IMG/VR virus record: IMGVR_UViG_3300045978_000317
Location: 1 to 24,381 of that record
Source: a virus
DNA: 24,381 nucleotides
Strand: one strand, 5' to 3'
A model generated the notes under the pieces. That model had not been told where the DNA came from. It did no database searches and worked only from the letters and a program-made list of their open reading frames with translations. The position numbers were made by a program, and so were the translations under genes. Positions 33 through 24,381 of the stretch are shown piece after piece (position 1 is the first letter of the stretch; every line of letters begins with the position of its first letter).

Positions 33-118
33 CCAGAGCCGCGCCGCTTGGTAGAGCCGCTTGGAAGGATCGCAGTAACTACTTTAGATACAACACGTTA
101 GATAGCTGCGGGAGTTTT

Positions 119-164
119 CTTCTAAGTCGGATGTCGCAGGTTCGAGTCCTGCCGGGCGCGCCCA
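119..164 (+). other. attP: attP core: 3' half of tRNA-Arg(UCU)
   Basis: The stretch starts with an anticodon loop CTTCTAA (119-125, anticodon TCT). It continues with a 3' anticodon-stem strand (126-130), a five-base variable loop, a T arm (GCAGG 136-140, loop TTCGAGT, CCTGC 148-152), an acceptor 3' strand CGGGCGC (153-159) and discriminator G160. The bases upstream (GTTTT) cannot pair with the stem, so homology to the host tRNA begins at the anticodon loop, a usual crossover site for tRNA-targeting tyrosine integrases. Insertion would restore the host tRNA 3' half. The CCA end is not exactly encoded (CCCA follows G160). Confidence 0.85.
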
Positions 165-202: not shown

Positions 203-231
203 TTGACAGTCTTCCAAGTGACGATGAAAAT
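203..231 (+). promoter_or_regulatory. Candidate sigma-70 promoter for the integrase operon
   Basis: A perfect TTGACA (-35) at 203-208 is followed after 17 bp by GAAAAT (226-231), which matches four of six -10 positions. An imperfect inverted repeat, CACTTTGG (193-200) and CCAAGTG (214-220), brackets the -35 box and could be an operator. Its position upstream of 336-2556 fits. No experimental support is implied. Confidence 0.45.
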
Positions 232-335
232 GAATGACACGTAATTGCTAACAAAAACAACGGATGCTATTCTAGCGCTTGGAGGGAGCGCTTGGAGGGA
301 TTTCACTATCGGCCCGCCGGCAAGGAATCGGTGTA

Positions 336-632
336 ATGCCACGTCGTGACCGGCTGGCGACCGGGATCTATGCCGACCGCTACGGCATCAGTGCCATCGT
401 CACCGTCGGCGCGAAACGCGCCGAGCATCGCTTCCCACACAAGACGCCGCTAAAGCAGATGCAGGCGTGGCGGCACATGCGTCGAGTCGAATTGCAACTC
501 GATCGCCCGTCTCGGGAGGACAGGCTAATTGATCTGGAAACGCAGATCGCCGCACTGCGGGCCAGCCTGAGCGCCTGTCAGGAGGACGTACGCATGATTC
601 AACAATTCGTCTTCAACAAGGAATCGGTGTAA
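336..632 (+). CDS. Stand-alone copy of the integrase N-terminal (arm-binding-like) domain plus coiled coil
   Basis: This 98-residue protein repeats the N-terminus of the next gene, the integrase. Residues 5-50 (RLATGIYADRYGIS and on to FPHKTPLKQMQAWR) align with integrase residues 10-50. At DNA level 351-395 is identical to 659-703 over 45 bases. The second half (about 58-92) is a heptad-like, probably coiled-coil segment not found in the integrase. I chose ATG 336 because AAGGAATCGGTGTA stands before it exactly as before the integrase start. The stop overlaps the integrase ATG (TAATG), so the two are probably translationally coupled. In tyrosine integrases this region binds arm-type sites. 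A free copy could compete with or help the integrase, for example as a directionality factor; that role is inference. Confidence 0.75.
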   Translation: MPRRDRLATGIYADRYGISAIVTVGAKRAEHRFPHKTPLKQMQAWRHMRRVELQLDRPSREDRLIDLETQIAALRASLSACQEDVRMIQQFVFNKESV

Positions 633-1807
633 TGGCACGTCGTGACGGACAACGAAAGCGGCTGGCGACCGGGATCTATGCCGACCGCTACGGCATCAGT
701 GCCGTCGTTACCGTGGGCCCCCTGCGCGACGAGGGCCGGTTTCCGCACGGCACGCCGCTCGACACGATCGAGGCGTGGCGCCTGGAGCGGCGCGCGGCGT
801 TCCTGAAACAGCGCGGCCGCGCCGAGAAGGGCACGCTGAGCGGCGACATGCAGACGTTCCTCGGCACGGTGCCGGAGGGGGGCCGGACGCGGGAGGATTA
901 CGAGCGGTTCTTCCGCCAGTGGCGGGATTCGCCGCTGGGCGCCGTGCCGCGCCACGCCATCACCGAAACGGACATCCGGACGCAGCTCGCCGCCTGGGCG
1001 CCGTCCTACGCGCCGGGCACGCGGCGGCACTTGCTCCGCGTCCTCCGCACCCTCTATCGCCGCCTCGACGGCGCGGGCGCCGCGAACCCGACCGCCGGAA
1101 TTACCATCCCCCAGCCCAAGCGGGCGCCGCGCGCCGTGCCCGTCGCCCTCGTCGAGCAACTGCTGGCGCACCTGCCCGATCGCGGGCGGCCCGTGAAAGG
1201 CGAGCCCCGCAGTACGGTGAGCGAGACCAAGATTCGCCTGCGCGTGATGGCCTGGACCGGGCTGCCGCAAATGCAGCTCGAACGCCTGCGCGAGACGGAC
1301 GTCCGATTTACGGCCGGGCTCCTCCGCTACCCGGGGCGCCACAAAGGGCAGGGCGTGGCCGGCGGCACGTGGGTGTCCTTACTCCCGCCCGCCGTCGAGG
1401 CCCTGCGCAACTACGCGGCGGCGGGCCTCTGGGGCAAGCGCTTCTCCCGCAAGAGCATGTCGCAAACCTGGAAACGCACGATCGCCCGCACGCGCCGCGC
1501 GATCGTGGCGCGCGTGCAGGAGAGCGGCGACGTGACGGAGCTGGAAACGTTTGACGCGGCGATTCCCGACGGCTGCCGGCCCTACGATCTGCGGCATTCG
1601 TTCCTGACGGAAGCCCTACGGACGAGCGGCGATTTGATCGCCGTCGCGGAGTTGGCCCAGCACGCGAGCATCACCACGACGCGGCAGTATGTGGCAGGCG
1701 CCGCCGCGGAACGCGCGCACGCCGCCGTCGCCGCCATGGCGGCGCGCTGGACGCCGACGCCGCCTCCCGTGCCCGCGCCGCGCCTCGTCAAAGGGCACGG
1801 CCGATGA
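632..1807 (+). CDS. int: Tyrosine-type site-specific integrase (divergent active site)
   Basis: This 391-residue protein has an N-terminal arm-binding-like domain (about 8-55), a SAM-like core-binding domain (about 65-150) and a C-terminal catalytic domain (about 165-370). The C-terminus shows YDLRHSF (318-324), LAQHAS (341-346) and the nucleophile Y353 in TTRQYV. K238 in GRHKGQG fits the beta-hairpin lysine. Two catalytic positions are unusual: the TGLR box reads TGLPQMQL, with P212 where arginine is expected, and box II has Y318 instead of histidine. It lies next to the tRNA-Arg attachment site, which supports phage integration and excision. The start overlaps the stop of the preceding gene. 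The divergent box I may mark a distinct subfamily or an arginine supplied from elsewhere. The identification as an integrase is firm. Confidence 0.93.
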   Translation: MARRDGQRKRLATGIYADRYGISAVVTVGPLRDEGRFPHGTPLDTIEAWRLERRAAFLKQRGRAEKGTLSGDMQTFLGTVPEGGRTREDYERFFRQWRDSPLGAVPRHAITETDIRTQLAAWAPSYAPGTRRHLLRVLRTLYRRLDGAGAANPTAGITIPQPKRAPRAVPVALVEQLLAHLPDRGRPVKGEPRSTVSETKIRLRVMAWTGLPQMQLERLRETDVRFTAGLLRYPGRHKGQGVAGGTWVSLLPPAVEALRNYAAAGLWGKRFSRKSMSQTWKRTIARTRRAIVARVQESGDVTELETFDAAIPDGCRPYDLRHSFLTEALRTSGDLIAVAELAQHASITTTRQYVAGAAAERAHAAVAAMAARWTPTPPPVPAPRLVKGHGR

Positions 1808-2016
1808 CCCTGCAGGACGTCCTCGCCGATCTCGCCGCCGCGCAGCAGGCGCTGCACCGCTCCTCGCACGCCTTTGACGAGGCCATCGACGCGATGCAGC
1901 AGACGCTCTCCGCCATCGGCGCGGCCAACCGGGCGCAGGGCGAGGCCATCGCCGCCGTCATCGCCGCCACCGAAAAGGCGCTCGCCCTGATCGCGACCAA
2001 CGGGCAGCAACACTGA
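1804..2016 (+). CDS. Small alpha-helical coiled-coil protein
   Basis: This 70-residue protein starts inside the integrase stop (ATGA overlap) and is therefore probably coupled to it. The sequence is almost wholly helical and alanine-rich with heptad spacing (for example AIDAMQQTLSAIGAAN), with no cysteines and no membrane segment. I do not recognise a family. Its initiation region, CAAAGGGCACGGCCGATGAC at 1789-1808, recurs with one mismatch at the next gene. As a satellite of the integrase it could be an accessory or regulatory protein, but nothing in the sequence proves this. Confidence 0.6.
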   Translation: MTLQDVLADLAAAQQALHRSSHAFDEAIDAMQQTLSAIGAANRAQGEAIAAVIAATEKALALIATNGQQH

Positions 2017-23312: not shown

Positions 23313-23636
23313 TCAGCGCCGGCGGCGGGTCGGCTGGGCGGGCCTCGGGGCCGCGGCGCGGGTGGCCGCCGCCGCCTGCCGGCTTCGTTCGTCCAGGTCC
23401 TGCTCGACGGCGGCGCGAAGCCAGCGGTACGGCCGCGTGTCGTATGGGGGCGGGTGGAACGTGCCCCGCTGACAGTCGCGCCGGATCGTGCCCAGGGACC
23501 GCCGGTAAATCCGGGCGATGTCGGGGGCCAGCAGGATGAGGGGGAGGGCGGAGAGGTCACGAATCGGGGCGTCGGCCGGGTCCGGCAGGGGCTCAGACTC
23601 GACGACGGAGGATGAGGCCGGCGACGAAACAACCAT
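23313..23636 (-). CDS. HTH protein (excisionase / early regulator type)
   Basis: This 107-residue protein is the first gene of the leftward operon. Residues about 32-80 resemble MerR/AlpA-type excisionase folds: LILLAPDIARIYRRSLGTIR, RDCQRGTFHPPP, YRWLRAAVEQDL. The C-terminus is Ala/Arg-rich and basic. AGGAGG stands five bases before ATG 23636, the best site in the genome. It could be the directionality factor for the integrase or an early gene regulator. Confidence 0.68.
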   Translation of the reverse strand: MVVSSPASSSVVESEPLPDPADAPIRDLSALPLILLAPDIARIYRRSLGTIRRDCQRGTFHPPPYDTRPYRWLRAAVEQDLDERSRQAAAATRAAAPRPAQPTRRRR

Positions 23637-23998: not shown

Positions 23999-24208
23999 AT
24001 GGCCCGCAAGTCTCCCCGGCGGCTGAAGCGGCAAGTCAACGTGCCCCTCGCGGCGCCGCTCGCCCAACGCCTCGATGCCGCGGTCGGCGTCCTCGGCGAC
24101 TCCCAGGCCAAAATCGTGAGCGACGCGCTCACCCTCTGGTTCGAGTCCTTGCCGCCCGATACGCGTCACGCCATCGATCTCATCCTCGCCATTCGCGACC
24201 GCCGGTAG
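23999..24208 (+). CDS. Ribbon-helix-helix regulator, candidate repressor
   Basis: This 69-residue protein has a basic start (ARKSPRRLKRQVNVPLAAPL) and an RHH pattern: strand RQVNVPL, helix 1 (AAPLAQRLDAAVGVL), turn GDSQ, helix 2 (AKIVSDALTLWFESL), plus a C-terminal helix. AGGA lies nine bases before ATG 23999. It is the only gene reading away from the lytic operon across the control region and is next to the attachment site and integrase, as lysogeny genes are. Repressor role is inference from position; RHH proteins can also be activators. Confidence 0.78.
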   Translation: MARKSPRRLKRQVNVPLAAPLAQRLDAAVGVLGDSQAKIVSDALTLWFESLPPDTRHAIDLILAIRDRR

Positions 24209-24381
24209 CCAGAGCCGCGCCGCTTGGTAGAGCCGCTTGGAAGGATCGCAGTAACTACTTTAGATACAACACGTTAGATAGCTGCGGGAGTTTTCTTCTA
24301 AGCCGGGGGTCGCAGGTTCGAGTCCTGCCGGGCGCGCCCATTTTTCCTCAGCAAATCCGTAAGTTTGGCACTTTGGGCTTG
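24177..24381. repeat. Right copy of the 205-bp terminal direct repeat
   Basis: This copy matches bases 1-205 with mismatches at 24303 (C for T), 24307 (G for A) and 24308 (G for T). It ends in the middle of the integrase leader, at the first bases of the -35 box. The downstream sequence continues at base 206 in the circular genome. Confidence 0.95.
24295..24340 (+). other. attP: Second attP core allele (tRNA-Arg 3' half)
   Basis: The same tRNA 3' half as at 119-164, but the 3' anticodon-stem strand reads GCCGG (left copy GTCGG) and the variable loop GGGTC (left copy ATGTC). Both are acceptable tRNA sequences. The T arm and acceptor strand are unchanged. Confidence 0.82.

Follow-up and report, generated by a model that had tools for sequence, protein, structure and literature searches.

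Why should a phage carry, directly ahead of its integrase gene, a second gene that copies the integrase's own arm-binding domain? The locus raising this question lies in the window, i.e., the whole stretch of DNA analysed here, a virus record of 24,381 nt. Its terminal 205 nt are alike at both ends (1-205 versus 24177-24381, with 202/205 positions identical), and the contig therefore looks like a circular phage genome with overlapping ends. Rightward from attP, the gene order is P0001 (336-632) and then integrase P0002 (632-1807). The first-pass annotation had placed a 98-residue product at 336-632, coupled upstream of the integrase gene (int). Its coordinates and reading are correct: P0001 is an ATG-initiated open reading frame of 98 codons, and its stop overlaps the start of the 391-codon int as TAATG, in the manner of translationally coupled genes.

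336-632, plus strand: P0001, stand-alone arm-domain gene, 98 aa (ORF calling; arm HMM, E 7.5e-20)
336-500, plus strand: P0001 arm domain, residues 1-55, three main strands and a helix (AlphaFold2, PDB matches)
513-620, plus strand: P0001 long helix/coiled coil, residues 60-95 (AlphaFold2; likeness to the L093 tail)
632-1807, plus strand: tyrosine integrase P0002, 391 aa, arm domain at residues 9-61 (PF00589, E 7e-7; PHROG_1, E 4e-23)

Assignment of the P0001 domain to the integrase arm type is borne out by an HMM of 58 integrase N-termini, which matches P0001 at E 7.5e-20, as well as by its AlphaFold2 fold and by PDB matches (at weak E-values). The arm-binding (AB) domain is defined as three β strands followed by an α helix (PMC8138268). 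With an alignment of 50 arm domains as input, AlphaFold2 places strands in P0001 at residues 11-14, 17-24, and 27-33 and a helix at 39-55, plus a short N-terminal strand, consistent with the AB fold (pLDDT 91-98 at residues 1-50 and 83 at 51-60). In a Foldseek search of the PDB, 3jtz and 3rmp ranked first and second (probability 0.85-0.90, with weak E-values of 0.47-0.50), and entries with a probability of at least 0.85 were solely HPI/P4-like integrase arm domains (weak E-values of ~0.5). The corresponding search of BFVD returned nothing significant, with weak matches to HNH and GIY-YIG endonucleases. Given the weak Foldseek E-values and these endonuclease matches, the fold match by itself is not decisive, and the sequence evidence of the arm HMM is the stronger argument. 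Neither Pfam nor PHROGs yielded a named family for P0001, and no HTH family matched it, the predicted fold being that of an arm domain and not of a winged helix/HTH. The R-K-H/Y-R-H-Y catalytic domain is absent from the 98 residues of P0001 and present in P0002, which retains R202, K238, R321, H344, and Y353 at the positions expected to be catalytic, and for which the AlphaFold2 model (pLDDT 92.5) matches Xer, Tn1549 Int, and lambda Int in Foldseek.

The coiled coil proposed for the remainder of P0001 is supported by AlphaFold2, in which residues 60-95 form a single helix (pLDDT ~66-83). A stand-alone ("free") arm protein from the related locus L093 has the same arm-plus-coiled-coil build (28% identity to P0001 over 103 aa), and the two tails resemble each other (heptad-preserving shuffle p 0.004). 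Below the Pfam threshold, this L093 protein (L093:4022-4369) also matches PF24203, Phage_ProQ_C_like (E 0.0019; 19.3 bits versus a cut-off of 27). Two small genes follow int in the window (1804-2016 and 2056-2259), of which the second encodes a product similar to the coiled coil that ends the free-arm protein of L093 (p 0.002 in the heptad-preserving shuffle).

The relationship between P0001 and the integrase N-terminus is also apparent at the DNA level, where a block spanning the start of each gene is repeated.

321-395, plus strand: near-identical repeat block 1, copy 1, with SD, start, and codons 1-20 (repeat comparison)
617-703, plus strand: near-identical repeat block 1, copy 2, with a 12-nt insertion (repeat comparison)

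Positions 351-395 and 659-703 are exactly identical (45 nt), as first noted, and constitute the sole repeated 20-mer family in the 24 kb besides the end repeat. The first-pass annotation had P0001 copying about 46 residues of the integrase N-terminus; the copying is real, but its extent was understated, since homology reaches approximately codon 56 (with the same residue at 37/56 aligned codons) and the leader CAAGGAATCGGTGTA-ATG was duplicated too (321-350 versus 617-646; 97%, with a 12-nt indel). The two copies form a mosaic: codons 1-21 are identical at 61/63 nt (dS 0), and codons 22-56 (block 2) are identical at 62/105 nt, with 18/35 residues kept (dS ~1.3, dN 0.45) and differences distributed 10/11/22 by codon position, i.e., mostly at the third (dN/dS ~0.36). 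From this pattern, we infer either two older, protein-constrained copies of which the front was recently homogenised, or a recombination junction within block 1. In block 2, the integrase is closer to that of the related locus L059 (67%) than to P0001 (55%), such that P0001 would be either older than the integrase/L059 split or faster evolving, with low tree support. In a tree of the 50-residue domains, P0001 fell next to the integrases of the window and of L059 (support 0.35), and the remaining free arms grouped separately (0.72-0.94); such a domain is too short to date the duplication. As the GC3 of P0001 (0.73) is lower than that of int and the structural genes (0.88-0.91), P0001 may be a recent import.

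Two less functional accounts can be weighed here. P0001 could be debris, i.e., a functionless but still open remnant of a partial tandem duplication or recombination of the integrase 5' end, as would suit the dS of 0 in block 1 (a recent event), the lower GC3, an upstream arrangement unique to the window contig, and an arm copy lacking a convincing start or tail at the related locus L149, itself a doubtful case. We consider this unlikely given the open 98-codon frame with its own SD and TAATG coupling, a tail resembling that of the L093 protein, the third-position bias of block 2 divergence, and the conserved place beside attP and purifying selection encountered in relatives (below). Alternatively, assembly could have joined two phage strains at the repeated block; the locus is known from a single metagenomic contig, the border between identical and diverged blocks is sharp, and the end repeat holds three mismatches. 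The longest exact shared stretch, at 45 nt, would nonetheless be a short bridge for a chimeric join, and gene order and spacing around attP are consistent and agree with those of relatives, making a chimera extremely improbable.

The surroundings of attP provide the setting in which P0001 would act.

1-205, also 24177-24381, no strand: end repeat (202/205 identical)
45-67, plus strand: predicted P-arm sites CGCTTGGWRG, at 45-54 and 58-67 (motif count)
~119-164, plus strand: attP core, the 3' half of a tRNA-Arg(TCT)-like gene, from anticodon loop to 3' end (sequence, T-arm scan)
203-231, plus strand: promoter-like TTGACA-17-GAAAAT, ahead of the P'-arm sites and P0001 (10/12; 0.3 expected by chance)
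276-298, plus strand: predicted P'-arm sites CGCTTGGAGG, at 276-285 and 289-298 (motif count; same geometry in relatives)

The 3' tRNA half lies inside the end overlap and no complete tRNA gene was found in the window, hence its designation as the attP core. The three end-repeat mismatches (127, 131, and 132) all fall just 3' of the anticodon loop, with one copy more tRNA-like than the other (GCCGGGGG); these differences may record a mixture of attP and integrated-junction molecules in the sample. CGCTTGGWRG occurs at 45, 58, 276, and 289, plus the two end-repeat copies, and nowhere else in the 24 kb (0.23 expected), and the pairs flanking attP are predicted to be arm-type sites. Just left of the predicted P-arm sites ends the gene for a 69-aa product (23999-24208), by eye of a small ribbon-helix-helix type; at L059, a 58-aa ORF of similar type, again by eye, overlaps the integrase start.

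Relative to the T-arm anchor, the window sites lie at -91, -78, +140, and +153. Comparable positions were found for GTTACC in L093 (-88/-75/+145/+156), GTTGC in L132 (~-87/-74 and +145/+157), CTTGCC in L108 and L115 (-85/-72/+144/+156), GTTGCC in L111 (-87/-74/+144/+155/+167), and GGATGG in the sister phage G002 (-89/-76/+144/+157/+169). Site spacing around attP is thus near-constant across related phages, with a motif that differs from phage to phage, and this conserved geometry is as expected of paired arm-type sites. The combination of near-constant geometry and varying motif (L059-L132) would also lend itself to matching residues of the arm domain to the motifs they recognise.

Do other phages carry such a gene? 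Single-protein searches for integrase relatives returned nothing, and an alignment search was needed, yielding 61 distinct loci (window included) after removal of duplicates, plus the later L149 and L153. The HMM of 58 arm domains detected stand-alone arm proteins besides P0001 in G005 (L048/L119), L108, L115, L088, L132, and L093. In all seven relatives with arm copies, the doubtful L149 included, int is followed by the tRNA 3' half, then the right-hand sites, then the free-arm gene, the last always being first 3' of the tRNA half and right-hand sites, which is the place of P0001 in the window. The free-arm ATG lies 180-220 nt from the T-arm scan anchor in these relatives and 201 nt from it for P0001; in G002, the integrase itself begins at 206 nt. 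P0001 thus occupies the place of int in its sister phage and that of the free arm in other relatives. Free arms were present in 7/14 loci where the tRNA piece follows int in the same orientation, and in 0/25 loci with the piece on the opposite strand (strict scan), the loci in both counts being related to each other. In the five tRNA-Gly-type phages (six records), each contig holds a single tRNA piece, which fits attP in a phage genome, as opposed to prophage attL plus attR. Four of the free arms share a tail, and with dN/dS values of 0.2-0.4 among them, these are real genes under purifying selection.

The concern that the small gene might be absent or broken in all relatives holds for the coupled arrangement, but not for the gene itself. 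None of the relatives examined, among them L059 with the nearest integrase and the sister phage, has an arm gene coupled upstream of int, and an arm gene between attP and int occurs only in the window contig, a single metagenomic contig; intact, constrained stand-alone arms nevertheless exist across attP from int. Since relatives carry such genes under purifying selection, P0001 is best described from these comparisons as an odd arrangement of a recurring module, not a one-off. The idea that relatives keep another coupled small gene in the upstream slot was dropped, the test being a weak one in which the script missed some overlapping ORFs. The same comparisons bear on whether the P0001 ORF is a translated leader, which would set int translation through the TAATG coupling while its peptide remains inert. 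The repeated SD-start block and TAATG overlap would suit such a leader; the stand-alone arms of relatives, however, lack coupling to int, and it is their protein products that are under constraint, rendering this account very unlikely.

The relatives also offer a glimpse of what a free arm might bind. Immediately before the free-arm gene in L108, L115, and L119, GTTG is repeated four times at intervals of 10-11 nt (~+166 to +197 relative to the T-arm anchor), adjoining the CTTGCC int sites. This array does not occur in L099, where the tRNA and int sites are the same and the available sequence shows no free arm. It has the look of an operator for the free arm protein, laid out along one face of the helix. 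In L108 and L115, the repeats nearest the free gene read GTTGCA and the int sites CTTGCC, a difference because of which these free arms may not share the sites of Int.

Building on the computed domain homology, predicted fold, site pairs, place beside attP, and purifying selection in relatives, our leading proposal is that P0001 binds arm sites without being catalytic, thereby repressing its own operon and tuning how intasomes assemble; we hold the chances of this proposal being right or wrong to be even. DNA binding by P0001, site sharing with Int, oligomerisation, repression, and an effect on recombination are all inferred, as follows. P0001 would be the first gene of an attP-P0001-int operon, and its domain would recognise the CGCTTGG repeats predicted for the arm domain of Int, the helical tail joining subunits into pairs or oligomers. 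The P'-arm sites sit between the promoter-like site (203-231) and the P0001 start; P0001 bound to these sites in its own leader would repress the P0001-int operon and would compete with or alter Int loading there, thereby tuning formation of integrative versus excisive intasomes. Once the phage has integrated, P0001 would directly follow the rebuilt host tRNA gene, and the lysogen may therefore express it as a brake that does not cut DNA. Autorepression is documented for intS and other tRNA-int genes in which the int promoter overlaps the attL arm sites (PMC2951348). In lambda, integration and excision employ different arm sites, and arm-site choice governs direction (PMC4880445). By analogy with these systems, action of an arm-only protein at the predicted arm sites is mechanistically plausible.

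P0001 could instead be the excisionase/RDF of the phage, binding arm sites to favour excision; its position directly upstream of and overlapping int resembles that of xis. Such is the arrangement in lambda-like phages, where xis sits directly upstream of and overlaps int. The governance of direction by arm-site choice in lambda (PMC4880445) would also agree. A separate candidate is, however, encoded elsewhere in the window:

23313-23636, minus strand: HTH_17-like (AlpA/Xis-like) protein, RDF candidate (43% identity over 72 aa to an L001 protein matching PF12728)

HTH_17 proteins are a common RDF type, and this relative of the L001 HTH_17 protein is a better excisionase candidate than P0001. 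Moreover, L059 has, by eye, a gene similar to the HTH_17-like one upstream of int, and the free arm in relatives is not beside the start of int. As the HTH_17-like protein is encoded at 23313-23636(-), P0001 is probably not the excisionase, a role that we regard as quite improbable for it.

Returning to P0001 as a non-catalytic arm-site binder, a broader and more tentative reading, which we think somewhat more likely to fail than to hold, is that of a new class of recombination accessory. Here, a split-off, non-catalytic arm domain encoded by the first gene beyond the P'-arm sites would control integrase expression and recombination direction, with the host tRNA promoter turning its gene on after integration, and phages of the P0001 group would have split off copies of their integrase arms repeatedly. 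The proteins tried matched nothing among GenBank phages and plasmids, and a viral scan for P0001-like genes recovered two integrases only and no close P0001 relative. No free arm was found in 289 Alphaproteobacteria genomes, a search that shows little, having returned only weak matches besides the known integrase, nor in 398 Pseudomonadota genomes, where a search run without a positive control likewise shows little. No report of free-standing arm domains turned up in the open-access literature searched, and we know of no description of a stand-alone arm-domain module beside attP. Taken with the similar genes in relatives, this soil phage suggests an undescribed non-cutting helper or brake for integration.

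How does P0001 compare with known systems? With the arm domains of HPI/P4-like integrases (3jtz and 3rmp), it shares the predicted three main strands and helix, homology to integrase N-termini, and predicted arm-type sites in paired direct repeats around attP. It differs in being a separate protein, devoid of core-binding and catalytic domains and furnished with a tail, coiled-coil or other. Negatively autoregulated, tRNA-associated integrase genes of the KplE1 intS type, in which tRNA and int have the same orientation, likewise have the arm sites of attL/attP placed between the tRNA and the start of the gene (PMC2951348). In the window, however, the first gene encodes an arm-only protein and int is second in the operon, and relatives of the window have int across attP from the arm-only gene. 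Like lambda Xis, AlpA/TorI, and HTH_17 excisionases, P0001 is small, predicted to bind DNA, and adjoins int, but its fold and origin differ, as it derives from the integrase's own arm domain. The isolated lambda Int N-domain supplied in trans is a laboratory construct in which an arm domain acts apart from the catalytic part; in the window phage, this split is encoded naturally. Phage integration direction is normally set by an integrase together with an Xis of unrelated origin. A stand-alone arm domain that occurs naturally and repeatedly next to attP would be a third kind of control element, built from the integrase itself, as well as a ready tool for testing how arm-site occupancy alone decides between integration and excision.
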